A stretch of 37,882 nt of DNA from a virus: positions 1-37,882 of the IMG/VR virus record IMGVR_UViG_3300028596_000034. The stretch is one strand, 5' to 3'. A program made the position numbers and the translations under genes. Shown piece after piece: positions 21,089 to 27,011 of this stretch (positions are counted from its first letter, which is position 1; each line of letters starts with the position of its first letter). Under the pieces are notes generated by a model. The model did no database searches. It had not been told where the DNA came from and was given only the letters and a program-made list of their open reading frames with translations.

Positions 21089-21916
21089 TCACTTGTAGAG
21101 GGCGTTGTAAAGAAGGTAGTTGTTGGCGCCGTTGTTTAGCGCATTCGCCACCCCGGTCACGCCTGCGGCCTGGGCATTGCCGGCCTGGGTCAGGTAGTTG
21201 CCCGCATTGTTCGCCGCCGTGATCTGCGCCTGCCCGGTCTGCGCGGCCGAGTTTTGCCCGACGTTAAGCAGGTTCTGCAGGTTGTTGACGTTGTTGGCGG
21301 CCACCTGATAGTTCGTGTTGTAGCTCGACAGGGCGCGGTTGTACTGCTCGCCGTAGGTCTGGTCGGCCAGGCCAGTAGCGTAGCGGGACAGACCCTTCGC
21401 CTGCGCACCAGAAAGGCCAAGCCCCTGCGATGCAAGCATGTTGCCGGTGGACTTGAGGCCTTGGCCAAGCGCGAACTGGTAACCCGGCGTGTTGGCCAGG
21501 TCTTTGGCATCGAAGGCGAATTTCTTCTGCAGCGCAGAGTTGGGGTCTACCGATGGGATCAGGTTGTTCTGGGCAGCCTCGAGCTCGCTGCGGTATGCCG
21601 CGATCTTCTCCTGCGCCTTTGCCTGGTTCCACTGTGGGTTTTCTGCAACCTGCTTGATCAGGGTGTCAAGCTTGGCTTGGGCGGCCGACACGGCCTTGGC
21701 ATCTGGCGCGAGTTTGTAGCCCATCGCCGCCCACAAGGGGTTTATCGCCTGCTCCCCCAGGTCGCGGTATGGCGCAAGATCCTCGCGCATTGCTGCGGCG
21801 GCATCGCCCTGCTGCGCTGCAGCGTCTTTTGCAGCGCTGGATTGAGCCTTTGACGCCTTGTTCGCCGCGTAGGCGGACGCAGCCGCCCCAGCGACTACAG
21901 CGGTAGTGGCTGCCAT
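21089..21916 (-). CDS. Ejection protein (P22 gp7-like)
   Basis: 275 residues (P22 gp7 is 229). The Ala-rich N-terminus (TTAVVAGAAASAYAANKASK) is followed by a helical region and a conserved-looking middle LANTPGYQFALGQGLKSTGN and LSGAQAKGLSRYATGLAD. The C-terminus is Asn/Ala/Gln-rich. This pattern is typical of DNA-transfer proteins of P22-like and Pseudomonas podoviruses. It is the first of three ejection genes in the expected order. Confidence 0.78.
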   Translation of the reverse strand: MAATTAVVAGAAASAYAANKASKAQSSAAKDAAAQQGDAAAAMREDLAPYRDLGEQAINPLWAAMGYKLAPDAKAVSAAQAKLDTLIKQVAENPQWNQAKAQEKIAAYRSELEAAQNNLIPSVDPNSALQKKFAFDAKDLANTPGYQFALGQGLKSTGNMLASQGLGLSGAQAKGLSRYATGLADQTYGEQYNRALSSYNTNYQVAANNVNNLQNLLNVGQNSAAQTGQAQITAANNAGNYLTQAGNAQAAGVTGVANALNNGANNYLLYNALYK

Positions 21917-22357
21917 TTAAAGAATCCTCGTGAATGAAGTTTCGGAATGTTTATAGCCGTGGCGCAGGTAGATACGCTCGGCCACATCCGGCGCCGACGA
22001 CTGCATGCTTACCATGGTCCAGTATTTGACGCCCACGGCCTTTGCCTGGCGCTCTATGTGACGGAGAAGATCAAGGCTGTGCCTACCCTTGCGTGCATCA
22101 GGATTGACCCACCAGGCGATCTCCGTGGCGGTCTTCGTGGATGCGTTGCCCAGCAGTGGCCCGCTGATCCCAGCGGTGAAGCCCTCAAGCCTGCCGTCAA
22201 TCTCAAGCACGGCCAGCAGGCCATGATCGAGCGCCAGGCCAGTCATGAATGCCACATGCTCGCCGTCGAATTCCTCGGTGTACATGGTGTGCTTCCAGAA
22301 CTCCCGAGCCATGTCGACGATGGCCGGGATGTCTGCTGCTGTGCCGTCTCTGGTCAT
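21917..22357 (-). CDS. GNAT-family N-acetyltransferase
   Basis: 146 residues with the GNAT plan: N-terminal helices (AADIPAIVDMAREFW), the beta hairpin LLAVLEIDGRLEGFTAGI, then EIAWWVNPDARKGRHSLDLLRHIERQAKAVG (strand 4 and the acetyl-CoA loop, about 80-109; the R-K-G-R of the loop is a variant of the R/QxxGxG/A consensus), and C-terminal AERIYLRHGYKHSETSFTRIL, the usual final strands. The substrate is unknown. It sits in the gp14 slot of P22 between the 2OG oxygenase and the first ejection protein; its stop codon is immediately followed by the next ATG. It may modify virion or host proteins. Confidence 0.85.
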   Translation of the reverse strand: MTRDGTAADIPAIVDMAREFWKHTMYTEEFDGEHVAFMTGLALDHGLLAVLEIDGRLEGFTAGISGPLLGNASTKTATEIAWWVNPDARKGRHSLDLLRHIERQAKAVGVKYWTMVSMQSSAPDVAERIYLRHGYKHSETSFTRIL

Positions 22358-22367
22358 CGCGATTGCC

Positions 22368-22928
22368 TCAGCTGAAAAAGCAGGTCAGAACCAGGCGGGC
22401 ATGCTCGTTACCCACGCCAAATCCACCTGGTGGCTCGGCCCTGTGCAGGGCGGACGCATCAAAGACAAAAGCCCGGTTGGGCTTCATGTCTATCATGCTG
22501 CGGATGTCCCAAGCTGACCGGATGTTCTGCGCGTCCCGCACGATCTTCTCGAATGGCTCGATGCCTGGGTGGTAGGCGATGCCGGTATCGCGGTGCGAGA
22601 CCAGGCTGGTGCCGCCCTGACAGTCTTCCTCTCGGTTCAGGTACAGCATGAGGCTGAAAGCACCCATGCTTGCATCGGAATGGACCTCATGCGGGCAATA
22701 GACGCCGGCAGGAGACAGGCGCAGGAACATGGTGGGCTTGACGATGGGGGCGCCCTTGATCTCGCCAAGAAGCTCGAAGATCTCTTGCGCAATGTGCTCA
22801 GGGATATCGCTACAGATGTAGGGATACGAGACGCCGTCAACGGGATTGACCACGCTGCCAAACTTGGCCTTGTCGCAGTGATTGCGCAGTTCTTCGAAAT
22901 TGCGCAAGAAATCGTCGATTATCAGCAT
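22368..22928 (-). CDS. 2-oxoglutarate/Fe(II)-dependent oxygenase-like protein
   Basis: 186 residues. The double-stranded beta-helix signature is present: HSD (H83, D85) as the first iron ligands, FSLMLYLN (about 91-98), GGTSLV, the distal His in FDASALHRAEPP (H162), and R178 in ARLVLTCFF as the likely 2OG-carboxylate ligand. MLIIDDFLRNFEELRN at the N-terminus is typical of this group of oxygenases. It may hydroxylate a protein residue; the target is unknown. It lies 11 bases from the GNAT gene in the same operon. Confidence 0.82.
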   Translation of the reverse strand: MLIIDDFLRNFEELRNHCDKAKFGSVVNPVDGVSYPYICSDIPEHIAQEIFELLGEIKGAPIVKPTMFLRLSPAGVYCPHEVHSDASMGAFSLMLYLNREEDCQGGTSLVSHRDTGIAYHPGIEPFEKIVRDAQNIRSAWDIRSMIDMKPNRAFVFDASALHRAEPPGGFGVGNEHARLVLTCFFS

Positions 22929-22974
22929 TTTGAAGCCTCGGATATTGTGTGCTGCCCTTATTCTACGCCATGAA

Positions 22975-23313
22975 TCAGTTGGTGATCTCTCGGCCAGATA
23001 CCCGCAAGGTCAGCGATGCGGCAGCGCCAGCAATCGTAGACAGGAAGTCGCCGGGCTCCAGTACCTGGCCGATCAGCTCGGGCAGTGGGTAGCACTCTTT
23101 GGGCGCGATCTGGCGAAGGTTGACCACCAGGTTGGATGCGCCGGCCGTTGCCGCTGCAGTGACCACGTTGGCGCTGAACGTGACGTTGTTGTTGGTGGTG
23201 TTGGTGATCGTCGCTTTGTCGATGATCGCCTTGCAGTTGTTCGCCGTGTACTGAGTAGTTTGGGCGCTCTCGGCTTGCTTGGCTGGCACAAGCGTGCGGG
23301 TGGTGACGGTCAT
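22975..23313 (-). CDS. Small structural protein of unknown role
   Basis: 112 residues, Thr/Ala/Asn-rich and predicted all-beta (MTVTTRTLVPAKQAESAQ ... ATITNTTNNNVTFSANVV ... LVVNLRQIAPKECYPLPELIGQVLEPGDFLSTI). It resembles short beta-sandwich virion accessory proteins. Its ATG overlaps the stop of the needle-like gene (TAATG). It has no counterpart in the minimal P22 set. Confidence 0.65.
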   Translation of the reverse strand: MTVTTRTLVPAKQAESAQTTQYTANNCKAIIDKATITNTTNNNVTFSANVVTAAATAGASNLVVNLRQIAPKECYPLPELIGQVLEPGDFLSTIAGAAASLTLRVSGREITN

Positions 23314-24887
23314 TATTGTTGCTCCTGGTTTACGGATAGGGTGGCTGCTGGTGCGGCCGGCGAGAAGGCGGTCGCGGCGATATTGTCCACGGTCATGGCG
23401 GTGCTGTCGCAGGCGAACATAATTTCGATGTAATCGCCCGCCGCCATGGAGAAGAACAGGCTACGCGATGGCGCGCGAATGGCGGTGGCGCTGTCCAGCG
23501 AAGAAATCAGCGTACTGTTGGGTACGTCCACGCCGTTTTTCCTGAACCATAGGTAAACGTTCTTCACGCTGGCGCTGCTGGAGGTCAGCTGAAGGGACAC
23601 GCTGAACTTGTAGAGCCCGGCATTGGCCACCACGATGCGCGAGGTCGGCGCCCCGATGCTCACGCCATTGGCGATCAATGCAGAATCCCAGGTCAGGGCC
23701 TGGGCGGTGTTGATGGCTGACGGCACCTGGTCGGTCGTCTTGACGAACTGCCCGTAGAACAGCTGCTGCTCGACCGTTGGGCGTACAGCGATTTGCCCGG
23801 TGGTGGCGCTCACCGTCATAACTTGGGCAATCGGCAGGCTCAGCCTTGGCGCCGTAGGCTTGACGTTGGTGAAGCCACCGGCAATCGTCGGAGACACGTA
23901 CAGCACCTGGCCGGCAGTCCATGTCTCACCATAGGGCGCCCCTGTCGTGTCGATGTCGCGCACGCGGCCCCATACGGTGATTCGTCCCTGAGCGCCAATG
24001 GCGATGGCCTGGGTGGTTACGCCGACAATGGTGATGGGTGAGAGCGAGCCATTAGCGATGAAAAGAACGTAGCTGTTGGTGGCCGGGTTGATGCCCAGGC
24101 ATACGCCATTGGGGATGATGGCGCCGGTGTTGTTGGTGATGCGCCCGTACAGCTCCTGTCCCATCTGCTGGGTAACGCCGTCACTGTGGTGCAGGTTCAG
24201 GGTGTCATCGGCCGTATTCCAGGCCATGCGCGCCGTTTGCTGGAAGTATGCCGGCTGCTGGTCCCAGTCGATGTAGTCAAGGGATAGCGACCTTTGCGTC
24301 TGCACCTGTGGATTGCTGGTGGCAAGCTCGATGTTTCGAGACAGCACCTGCAGCGCATCCGCAACCCGCCCAGCTGCCGTCATGGCATTCCCGCCATCAA
24401 GCTCGAGGATCCTGGCGATGCCCTGCAGCGAGTCGCCGACCTGGTTGGCCTTGGCCAGCGCTGAGCCTGCATCGGTCAGGAATAGCCGAAGGACTTCCGC
24501 GATGGATGCCAGCGCCTGGTTGGCCTTGGCGACAGCTGTACCCGATAGCTCGTCAATGGCGCGCACTGCCGACTCCATGGAATCGATGCGCGATTGGTCT
24601 TGTGGCGGCGCTTGCGCCAGCGTGTCGAGCAGCAGTGACAGCTGGCTGATTGCGTCGTTGGCCTGGATGGCCTTGTTCTCTGCCGTGCCGGCGCCTATCG
24701 AGAGCTCGTTCAGGTCAAGGAAGATCTGCCGGATCAGCTCCAGGATGTTGGAGATATCGACGCCAGAAGAGCCGCCAGTGCGGGTCAGCAGGGTCTGGAA
24801 GAACCGCCACCAAACCTCACTGATGTTGCCGCGCGCGTCGATGATCGGCGTGTTGTAGATCGGCAGGTCAATTGCCACGTCAGCCAT
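23313..24887 (-). CDS. Tail needle/fibre-like protein with TNF-like C-terminal knob
   Basis: 524 residues, far longer than P22 needle gp26 (233), but in the same position after gp10. A short beta N-terminus containing ISEVWWRFFQTLLTR is followed by a long helical region (about 45-190, including AVAKANQALASIAEVLRLFLTD, shown in part) likely to form a trimeric coiled coil. A beta part follows (about 235-365, NTGAIIPNGVCLGINPA, VWGRVRDIDTTG). The C-terminal 150 residues (GLYKFSVSLQLTSSS ... VYLWFRKNGVDVPNS ... GDYIEIMFACD) look like a TNF-type jelly-roll, as in the Sf6 needle knob. It probably plugs the tail and senses the cell surface. Confidence 0.7.
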   Translation of the reverse strand: MADVAIDLPIYNTPIIDARGNISEVWWRFFQTLLTRTGGSSGVDISNILELIRQIFLDLNELSIGAGTAENKAIQANDAISQLSLLLDTLAQAPPQDQSRIDSMESAVRAIDELSGTAVAKANQALASIAEVLRLFLTDAGSALAKANQVGDSLQGIARILELDGGNAMTAAGRVADALQVLSRNIELATSNPQVQTQRSLSLDYIDWDQQPAYFQQTARMAWNTADDTLNLHHSDGVTQQMGQELYGRITNNTGAIIPNGVCLGINPATNSYVLFIANGSLSPITIVGVTTQAIAIGAQGRITVWGRVRDIDTTGAPYGETWTAGQVLYVSPTIAGGFTNVKPTAPRLSLPIAQVMTVSATTGQIAVRPTVEQQLFYGQFVKTTDQVPSAINTAQALTWDSALIANGVSIGAPTSRIVVANAGLYKFSVSLQLTSSSASVKNVYLWFRKNGVDVPNSTLISSLDSATAIRAPSRSLFFSMAAGDYIEIMFACDSTAMTVDNIAATAFSPAAPAATLSVNQEQQ

Positions 24888-26308
24888 TATCGTTTCCCCG
24901 ACTGGGCGTCAATGAATGCGCCGTTGAGGGCAGTTCGGCAGTCTGCAGACCAGGAGATCTCAAATACCCGGTCGCGGGCCTGGCCGAGCCGGTGCCAGCG
25001 CGCAATCGATCCGTATTGGCCGCGAAACCCTAGCGTTGTGCTGATGTGCTGCGACCAGCTGTTGCCCTTGGTGTCGCTGAATCGCAAGCGGATCTCTGGC
25101 GGCGTTTCAGGCTCCATGCTGGATGGATGGCCTGCCTCCATGTCCGCCTGGAACATCCGGTAAGCAATCCGGTTGCCGTCCTCGACCATGTGCGGGAAAG
25201 AGCGGATTCGCCGAATCTCGTTGCCGTCGTCGTTGTAGGTGTCCAGGTCCATCTCATAGAGGCGACCGTTCTTGTAATCGCCGACGACGTGCCGGCCATT
25301 CCAGAAGGCAAAGCAGTTGGCCCGGTGCCGCTCGAACACACCAGTCTCGGCAAGGTAGGCGCGCTCATGCCATTGGTTGGTGGACAGGTCGTAAACCCAG
25401 GTCTTGTTGGCAGTCGGAAAGGTCAGCACGTACCAGTAGTGGCCGGCCATCTGCTGCACATAGCCGATGGCGTCATCCACGCGTTCATAGCCCTGCAGCT
25501 CGTTCTCGATGGCGAAGGTGCTGATTCGCTCCCTGTCGTAGTTGGATGTGCGCAGCACCATGCAATCGCCCTGTGGCGCCTTGCTGACCCAGTACAGGCT
25601 GCCGTCCGCCTCGGTCAGGCTGTATGGCGCGGCGCACCCAAACTGGATGAACGCGCCCGGGATGCGCGAGAAGGTGAAGTCGGCGCCGCCCGTGTTGGTC
25701 CATACCTCGGTTGTCTCGTCACCGAAGATGAAGATGTTTCGCCGCGTCACGCCAATGCACACGATCTTGTCGGCGTGGCCAATCTTCGACGCAAAGTCCA
25801 GAGAATCGAAGTCCACGTCGCTAAACAGGGTGATGTACCACTGGTTGGTACCTGGCCGGTTCAGCACCAGGTAACCGTCCACCTCGGCGATGCGCGTAGA
25901 TCCGTAGAAAGCATCGTTGCTCACCCGGGCAAACTTGAGGTCGCCAAGGGTGATGGTGTAGCCGTTCACCGAGCCATCCACCAGCAGGATCTGAACGCCG
26001 TTGTCCTCCATGCTGCACGGCGTCAGGCGCGTCTCAATGTCGCCAAGGTGGTTCAACGTCCAGTCCTCGCGGATCTGGTAAACCTTGACCCCGCACACGC
26101 CAAACAGACGGTTGTCGGATGAGACGAACAGGCATCGCCAGGGCTCAACCTCAGCCTGCAGCAAGCGGCGCAAGCCTGGGGTCGGGTAGTGCGTAGTGGG
26201 GAACGTCTCGCCTTCGTTGTTCTTCTCAGGGAACAGGTTTACGCAGCGCTGCGCCGAGGCAATCACGCTGCGCGCCTGGTAGGCCCCAGTGAGCAATGGG
26301 ATTTTCAT
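24887..26308 (-). CDS. Packaged-DNA stabilisation protein (P22 gp10-like)
   Basis: 473 residues, almost exactly P22 gp10 (472). Start at ATG 26308 (MKIPLLTGAYQARSVIASAQ), which follows the gp4-like stop by one base; a longer frame would run into that gene. The family signature SAQRCVNLFPEKNNEGE is present (about 16-33), followed by beta-propeller-like repeats (LFVSSDNRLFGVCGVKVYQI, IFGDETTEVW, SLYWVSKAPQG). It forms the tail hub that retains DNA after packaging. Confidence 0.92.
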   Translation of the reverse strand: MKIPLLTGAYQARSVIASAQRCVNLFPEKNNEGETFPTTHYPTPGLRRLLQAEVEPWRCLFVSSDNRLFGVCGVKVYQIREDWTLNHLGDIETRLTPCSMEDNGVQILLVDGSVNGYTITLGDLKFARVSNDAFYGSTRIAEVDGYLVLNRPGTNQWYITLFSDVDFDSLDFASKIGHADKIVCIGVTRRNIFIFGDETTEVWTNTGGADFTFSRIPGAFIQFGCAAPYSLTEADGSLYWVSKAPQGDCMVLRTSNYDRERISTFAIENELQGYERVDDAIGYVQQMAGHYWYVLTFPTANKTWVYDLSTNQWHERAYLAETGVFERHRANCFAFWNGRHVVGDYKNGRLYEMDLDTYNDDGNEIRRIRSFPHMVEDGNRIAYRMFQADMEAGHPSSMEPETPPEIRLRFSDTKGNSWSQHISTTLGFRGQYGSIARWHRLGQARDRVFEISWSADCRTALNGAFIDAQSGKR

Positions 26309-26309
26309 G

Positions 26310-27011
26310 TCAGCGATCCGTGTAGACGTTGTAGTTGGCGCCGCGCACCAAGTCGGCTGGCATGTACAGCTTGCCAATCTGCGCGTTGGCCATTCGCACC
26401 GTCGCCAGAGAGGCCTGGGCCAACTGGATGACCACCTGATCGGGTGGCATGCCGTACATGGGGTACAGGCGCCCGGCCAGGTTGTACATCAGCGCCTCTT
26501 GGTACTCTGGCGGCAGCTCGATGTCGTCAAAGGGCGTCTCAAAGCGCTGCAGGGGCACCAGTGCCTGCAGGTGGATCTCGTAGATGCTGTCGGGGATGGG
26601 CCAGACGTGCAAAACCCCCAGTGGGTACTGAGGGTCGTAGTAGACGAGGGATGGCATTGATCCGATGGTCTTGGTGCTGATCCTACCCCAGTCGGTCTGC
26701 GATTGCAGAAGCTTGAGCGGCGTATCGACGGGCATCGGGTTCATCTGTCGGATGTAGGCGCCAACCACCCGGGCTGGTCGGGCGATATCGAAATCACCAC
26801 CAACCCCAACCGTATAGGTGGCGGCGCCTGTTGCAACCAGTGGCGCATCAAGGATCTGGTGCACCACGTTCCGTTTTACCGACCACTGCGACAGCATCAT
26901 GTTGAGCATGCTGAACGCGTCTTCGATGTCTTCGGCGGCGGCGGTCTGGCCGACCCCCAGCACCCCCACCTGTTTCAGTGCCAGATTGATCAGCTCGACC
27001 GGCGTCGTCAT
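26310..27011 (-). CDS. Tail accessory factor (P22 gp4-like)
   Basis: 233 residues (P22 gp4 is 166, so it is longer). Begins with MTTPVELINLALKQVGVL and EDAFSMLNMMLSQWSVKR, the family signature, then ADYDPQYPLGVLHVWP-type beta segments (here YYDPQYPLGVLHVWPIPD) and PEYQEALMYNLAGRLYPMYG near the C-terminus. It binds under the portal as the first tail ring and precedes gp10 as in P22. AAGGAG precedes the ATG. Confidence 0.9.
   Translation of the reverse strand: MTTPVELINLALKQVGVLGVGQTAAAEDIEDAFSMLNMMLSQWSVKRNVVHQILDAPLVATGAATYTVGVGGDFDIARPARVVGAYIRQMNPMPVDTPLKLLQSQTDWGRISTKTIGSMPSLVYYDPQYPLGVLHVWPIPDSIYEIHLQALVPLQRFETPFDDIELPPEYQEALMYNLAGRLYPMYGMPPDQVVIQLAQASLATVRMANAQIGKLYMPADLVRGANYNVYTDR

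Follow-up and report, generated by a model that had tools for sequence, protein, structure and literature searches.

The gene for a predicted 2OG-Fe(II) dioxygenase is linked, at every locus where we found it, to a GNAT-fold gene in the slot between the tail-needle and first ejection genes of short-tailed phages, and this strictly linked partner of a known phage GNAT slot has apparently not been described. The window, by which we mean the whole stretch of 37,882 nucleotides analysed, is a viral record and carries the pair on its - strand, within a late operon of P22 type. The operon encodes a large terminase, a P22-like portal, a scaffold, a P22-like coat, a gp4-like adaptor, a gp10-like head-closure protein, a needle-like protein, a 112-aa protein, the oxygenase, the GNAT-fold protein and a gp7-like ejection protein. 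It also encodes two proteins that stand where P22 has gp20 and gp16, and a beta-helix tail spike. Both genes of the pair do exist: the ORFs have the extents first assigned to them, on the - strand (Table 1), and they lie between the needle-like and ejection genes, in the order head-closure, needle-like, 112-aa, oxygenase, GNAT, gp7-like. The original prediction is confirmed in this respect, with corrections that we give below. We tentatively propose, with somewhat less than even confidence, that the pair forms a late-expressed protein-modification cassette with a virion protein as its target; the likeliest candidate is the gp7-like ejection protein, the product of the next gene downstream.

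Table 1. Genes around the oxygenase-GNAT pair, in the order of the late operon.
Feature	Coordinates	Strand	Basis
P22 gp10-like head-closure protein	24887..26377	-	phrog_578 E 3.8e-112; Phage_stabilise 42.1 bits
Needle-like protein, 524 aa, BclA_C-like C-terminal region	23313..24887	-	BclA_C E 9e-4 (below cut-off); position
112-aa protein upstream of oxygenase	22975..23313	-	54-68% identity in L006-L010
2OG-Fe(II) dioxygenase gene (DUF6445), 186 aa, predicted	22368..22928	-	Pfam, AF2 model, closest solved folds
GNAT-fold gene (PHROG 1249), 146 aa, predicted	21917..22357	-	PF00583, phrog_1249, family profile, residues
gp7-like DNA-ejection protein, 275 aa	21089..21916	-	phrog_598 'DNA ejection' E 3.6e-24
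Ejection protein, gp20 position, 493 aa	19597..21078	-	position only; homologous to L021 at 42%
Ejection protein, gp16 position, 850 aa	17048..19600	-	SLT domain E 5.5e-20, residues 7-101

The needle-like gene follows gp10, as gp26 does in P22. Neither the 112-aa protein nor the 493-aa protein drew a family match in Pfam/PHROG profile searches; the SLT domain of the 850-aa protein is an N-terminal lytic transglycosylase domain. In part of the relatives the gene of the 112-aa protein is conserved together with the pair. The oxygenase and GNAT genes are separated by 10 bases, not by the 11 first counted, and the GAGG (ribosome-site-like) of the GNAT gene overlaps the stop codon of the oxygenase gene. 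The ATG of the ejection gene (21916) comes directly after the GNAT stop. Because the three genes are so closely joined, they are probably translated together.

How constant is the pairing? A search with an alignment of the oxygenase only returned 32 viral-contig loci and, among bacterial genomes, one contig each of Gilvimarinus chinensis DSM 19667 and a Pseudooceanicola MAG; together these represent 23 distinct sequences below 95% similarity. At all 34 loci (32/32 viral-contig, 2/2 bacterial) a GNAT gene lies directly downstream of the oxygenase gene, in the same order and on the same strand; the co-occurrence in relatives to which the original prediction had looked is thus found. A search with the GNAT only gave 67 loci, many of them on the same contigs, and the oxygenase is present at 31. 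The pairing is far beyond chance. Since every oxygenase locus has the GNAT, and fewer than half of the GNAT loci have the oxygenase, the linkage is strong but one-way: the dependence is that of the oxygenase on the GNAT only. A literature search, with most subscription journals outside its scope, found no published description of such a pair.

A single-sequence oxygenase search of phage records and viral contigs found no relatives, where alignment searches succeeded, and a first oxygenase alignment found none in bacterial genomes, the two contigs coming from the other alignment search. In a tree of 30 GNATs, the sampled oxygenase-bearing members form one clade with one loss of the oxygenase. 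Among the wider set of 67 loci are more relatives that lack the oxygenase (43-49% identity), and the number of losses may therefore exceed one. One GNAT nested in the oxygenase-bearing clade (L018:6677-8435) is preceded by a 426-aa protein in place of the oxygenase. In the cultured type strain G. chinensis DSM 19667 the pair (L222, 6992-8021) lies inside a virion operon on a 1.3-Mb contig, in a region that is probably a prophage.

The oxygenase scores 34.8 bits against Pfam DUF6445 (PF20043; cut-off 24), which is matched by 24/24 of the oxygenase relatives, and 25.4 bits against 2OG-FeII_Oxy_3 (PF13640), below the cut-off of 27; the latter family is matched at E <= 0.01 by 17 of the 24. The iron triad HxD...H consists of H83, D85 and H162, and the 2OG-binding Arg is R178. 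All four residues are invariant in an alignment of 23 distinct relatives, so the catalytic signature first read in this gene holds. An AF2 model built from 24 aligned relatives (pLDDT 94.7) has a double-stranded beta-helix fold with 60 solved matches at E <= 0.001, and those listed are almost all 2OG enzymes. Prolyl hydroxylases take all of ranks 1-6 by Z, headed by the P. putida enzyme in its complex with EF-Tu (Z 13.7), and the other close folds are Trichoplax PHD, human PHD2, OGFOD1 and a viral collagen prolyl hydroxylase, with Tpa1 also listed. By modelled fold and residues, then, the protein is a member of the 2OG-Fe(II) dioxygenase superfamily, and the predicted fold together with the invariant Fe and 2OG residues makes it very likely that it is an active enzyme. 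The enzymes closest to it in fold belong to a type whose substrates are usually proteins, which points to protein hydroxylation.

The likeness to the protein prolyl hydroxylases (P. putida P4H, PHD2, OGFOD1, viral collagen P4H; Z 12-14) extends to the HxD...H and Arg signature, but identity is only 13-19%. A PDB search with the oxygenase sequence gave only chance UHRF1 matches, and one with the oxygenase profile gave no match. Unlike these hydroxylases, the window oxygenase belongs to a domain-of-unknown-function family, DUF6445, and is encoded in a phage virion operon. PHROG 1644 ('minor coat protein') and its Flavobacterium phage homologues belong to the same family, as all 24 members match both DUF6445 and PHROG 1644. 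The distant homologues are under 30% identical to the window oxygenase and occur away from this slot, in cyanomyoviruses and in Flavobacterium or Tenacibaculum phages; in S-SSM4, elemo and Gundel, DUF6445 lies outside the needle-ejection slot with no annotated GNAT beside it.

The second gene passes the PF00583 cut-off narrowly (22.5 bits against 20.7), and matches phrog_1249 at E 2.2e-16. Given the Pfam score and the match of its family profile to solved GNATs (E 2.7e-6), we assign its predicted product a GNAT fold. Is it an acetyltransferase? The acetyl-CoA loop, at first thought to be intact, reads RKGRHS and is without both glycines of R/Q-x-x-G-x-G/A. Most relatives have R-x-G-[RK]-N-G, and several oxygenase-linked GNATs keep a canonical loop (RNTGIG, RNTGGG, RRGGAG). 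Residues E79, W82, E102, Y130 and G134 are conserved, and Y130, at the position of the usual GNAT general acid, is kept in 30 of 31 GNATs. In the GNATs of phages Pam1 and Pan3 (L001:8141-8560, L002:8998-9417) the loop residues are missing altogether, which suggests that these members are non-catalytic GNAT-fold proteins in this slot. Since the window protein lacks the glycines, and its Pam1 and Pan3 counterparts the loop residues, catalysis by the window GNAT is uncertain, and because its loop is non-canonical we file the protein as GNAT-fold, an unproven acetyltransferase.

What might the pair act upon? At nearly all GNAT loci of the 67-locus set with sequence left downstream, an ejection-type ORF follows directly, with a hydrophobic N-terminus that usually starts Met-Ala. 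This adjacency makes the gp7-like protein the main candidate substrate, and its Ala2 is kept in 21 of the 23 oxygenase-bearing phages. The N-terminus of the ejection protein (21089-21916 and homologues) is usually Met-Ala-x-x-Thr and then a hydrophobic stretch, whether the oxygenase is present or absent. A Pro after the first helix of the gp7-like protein was considered as a site tracking the oxygenase; at one aligned column it is present in 18 of the 23 oxygenase-bearing phages, but it occurs also in Pam1 and Pan3, and in the gp7-like alignment no proline or other site tracks oxygenase presence cleanly. Oxygenase, GNAT and gp7 distances are all correlated (rho 0.42-0.55), so that co-divergence does not set the pair apart from gp7.

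A scenario for the pair is that short-tailed phages have had a GNAT-fold protein in the slot between tail-needle and first ejection gene for a long time, and that one lineage gained a prolyl-hydroxylase-type enzyme directly upstream. Within the infected cell both products would work on one of the virion proteins translated from the same message; the gp7-like ejection protein, whose gene comes next downstream, is the most likely target. Acetylation of an amino group, perhaps that of an exposed N-terminal alanine, would be the part of the GNAT, unless it binds the target as a chaperone; the oxygenase would add a hydroxyl group to one of the target's side chains. The benefit would be a target that is packaged, or crosses the envelope, correctly. 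A virion target is plausible, and what stands of the original interpretation is the presence of enzyme-type genes in a virion operon, their co-occurrence and a fold suited to protein hydroxylation; the intact loop does not stand, nor does the contrast drawn with P22. The cassette proposal is weakened by the loops of the window and Pam1/Pan3 GNATs, by the absence of a gp7-like site that cleanly tracks the oxygenase, and by the distant DUF6445 relatives that lie outside the slot with no annotated GNAT nearby. A full two-enzyme pathway, in which the DNA-ejection protein is both hydroxylated and acetylated before packaging, seems to us doubtful.

The phages compared here have exchanged segments around the pair. 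Between the window and several of the relatives L006-L010, the 112-aa protein, the oxygenase and the GNAT are 54-68% identical, as is the needle C-terminus in L006 and L010, whereas identity falls to about 20% in gp10 and about 35% in gp7. Against L021, in contrast, the ejection genes, gp10 and the pair are conserved, and the needle and 112-aa protein are not. In both exchanges it is the oxygenase-GNAT pair that stays constant. In the comparison with L006-L010, what has moved between phages with much more diverged gp10 and ejection genes is a segment (window 21917-24887) that runs from the needle C-terminus, or from the 112-aa gene, as far as the GNAT.

Might the pair have some other role? The exchange itself could be taken to mean that both genes are cargo, auxiliary metabolic genes with small-molecule targets in a recombination hot spot between the needle and ejection modules, since the high identity from needle C-terminus to GNAT, set against that of gp10, indicates that the stretch recombines as a block; an auxiliary-metabolic-gene role has also been discussed in the literature for roseophage GNATs. 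One would expect variation at a hot spot, yet the same two genes occur in the same order at 34/34 loci, and the GNAT slot is common to P22-, Pam1- and SIO1-like phages, so we regard cargo as very improbable. The constancy of that slot beside ejection genes, across very different phages, also fits a virion role better than one in which the pair, late in infection, would modify EF-Tu, a ribosomal protein or another host protein so as to favour virion protein synthesis or lysis. The EF-Tu complex of the closest solved oxygenase would fit such a host target equally well, the ribosome-linked hydroxylases OGFOD1 and Tpa1 are among the fold matches, and the window GNAT has a very weak match (E 0.019) to RimI, the S18 acetyltransferase. 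A substrate is not given by fold similarity, however, and identity to the EF-Tu- and ribosome-linked hydroxylases is only 13-18%; we think a host target unlikely.

A third reading keeps the virion target and gives up one of the two enzymes. Catalysis would be left to the oxygenase, and the GNAT-fold protein would, like P22 gp14, assist the ejection protein as chaperone or assembly factor. Annotations of P22 gp14 name head morphogenesis or virion stability as its function, in keeping with such a role, and the non-canonical loop of the window protein and the missing loop residues of Pam1 and Pan3 agree with it. It is harder to reconcile with the canonical loops of several oxygenase-linked members and with the near-universal Y130, and on balance we judge it rather unlikely. 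The modification cassette acting on a virion protein is the reading that we prefer.

How does the window compare with better-known phages? The PHROG 1249 acetyltransferases of Pam1, Pan3 and the cobaviruses (SIO1) are of the same family as the window GNAT (E 4e-34 to 8e-11) at 27-32% identity, and they occupy the same slot, before an ejection-type gene, but with no oxygenase. In Pam1-like cyanophages the slot has the needle gene on one side and the first ejection gene on the other; in SIO1-like phages its neighbours are tail and internal-virion genes. It also holds a GNAT in KZY1. Because Pam1, Pan3 and SIO1-like phages have a GNAT there, it is clear that a GNAT is old in this slot. The cobavirus GNAT was likened to T7 gp13 by its authors (PMC6775973). 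The T7 gp13 gene (PF11090) is just before internal-core protein gene 14, much as the GNAT gene is just before the ejection gene, and comparison of gp13 with the window GNAT gives an hhalign probability of 36% and a pairwise E of 3.7e-4. Pfam, we presume, groups both DUF2824 and the T7 gp13 family with acetyltransferases.

P22 itself is the most instructive case. There the slot between needle and gp7 holds gp14 (DUF2824, PF11039, PHROG 651), and the original prediction had set the window apart from P22 as a phage with only gp14 at this place. As input for a model of gp14 we took an IMG/VR sequence with no difference from that of P22 (L025:8911-9366), together with 16 relatives. The model has pLDDT 82 (only two of five models above 80). 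With either aligner, every one of its top 50 solved structures is a GNAT or a related acyltransferase, and the best has Z 16.4, with rmsd 2.1 over 142 residues (spermidine acetyltransferases). P22 gp14 very probably has a GNAT fold, and so resembles the window GNAT in predicted fold as well as in slot; the supposed contrast gives way. Profile-profile comparison of the window GNAT with gp14/DUF2824 gave an hhalign probability below 1%, and the window GNAT has no PF11039 match, so the relation is seen only via the structure model. P22, Sf6 and phiSG1, unlike the window, have no oxygenase next to gp14. If gp14 is a GNAT, the window lineage would have added a hydroxylase to an existing GNAT slot.

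We found no mechanism for the action of P22 gp14, and we know of no earlier case of enzymatic 'conditioning' of ejection proteins; a two-enzyme pathway, if true, would be the first known to us. The predicted GNAT fold of gp14 and the existence of a hydroxylase-paired lineage make it feasible to examine ejection proteins for acetylation and hydroxylation. Were such modifications found, phages would be seen to modify their own injection machinery enzymatically, and host oxygen and 2-oxoglutarate would feed into virion quality. The pathway would also account for the persistence, in P22-type phages, of a GNAT-fold gene (gp14) in the slot where the window has its pair.
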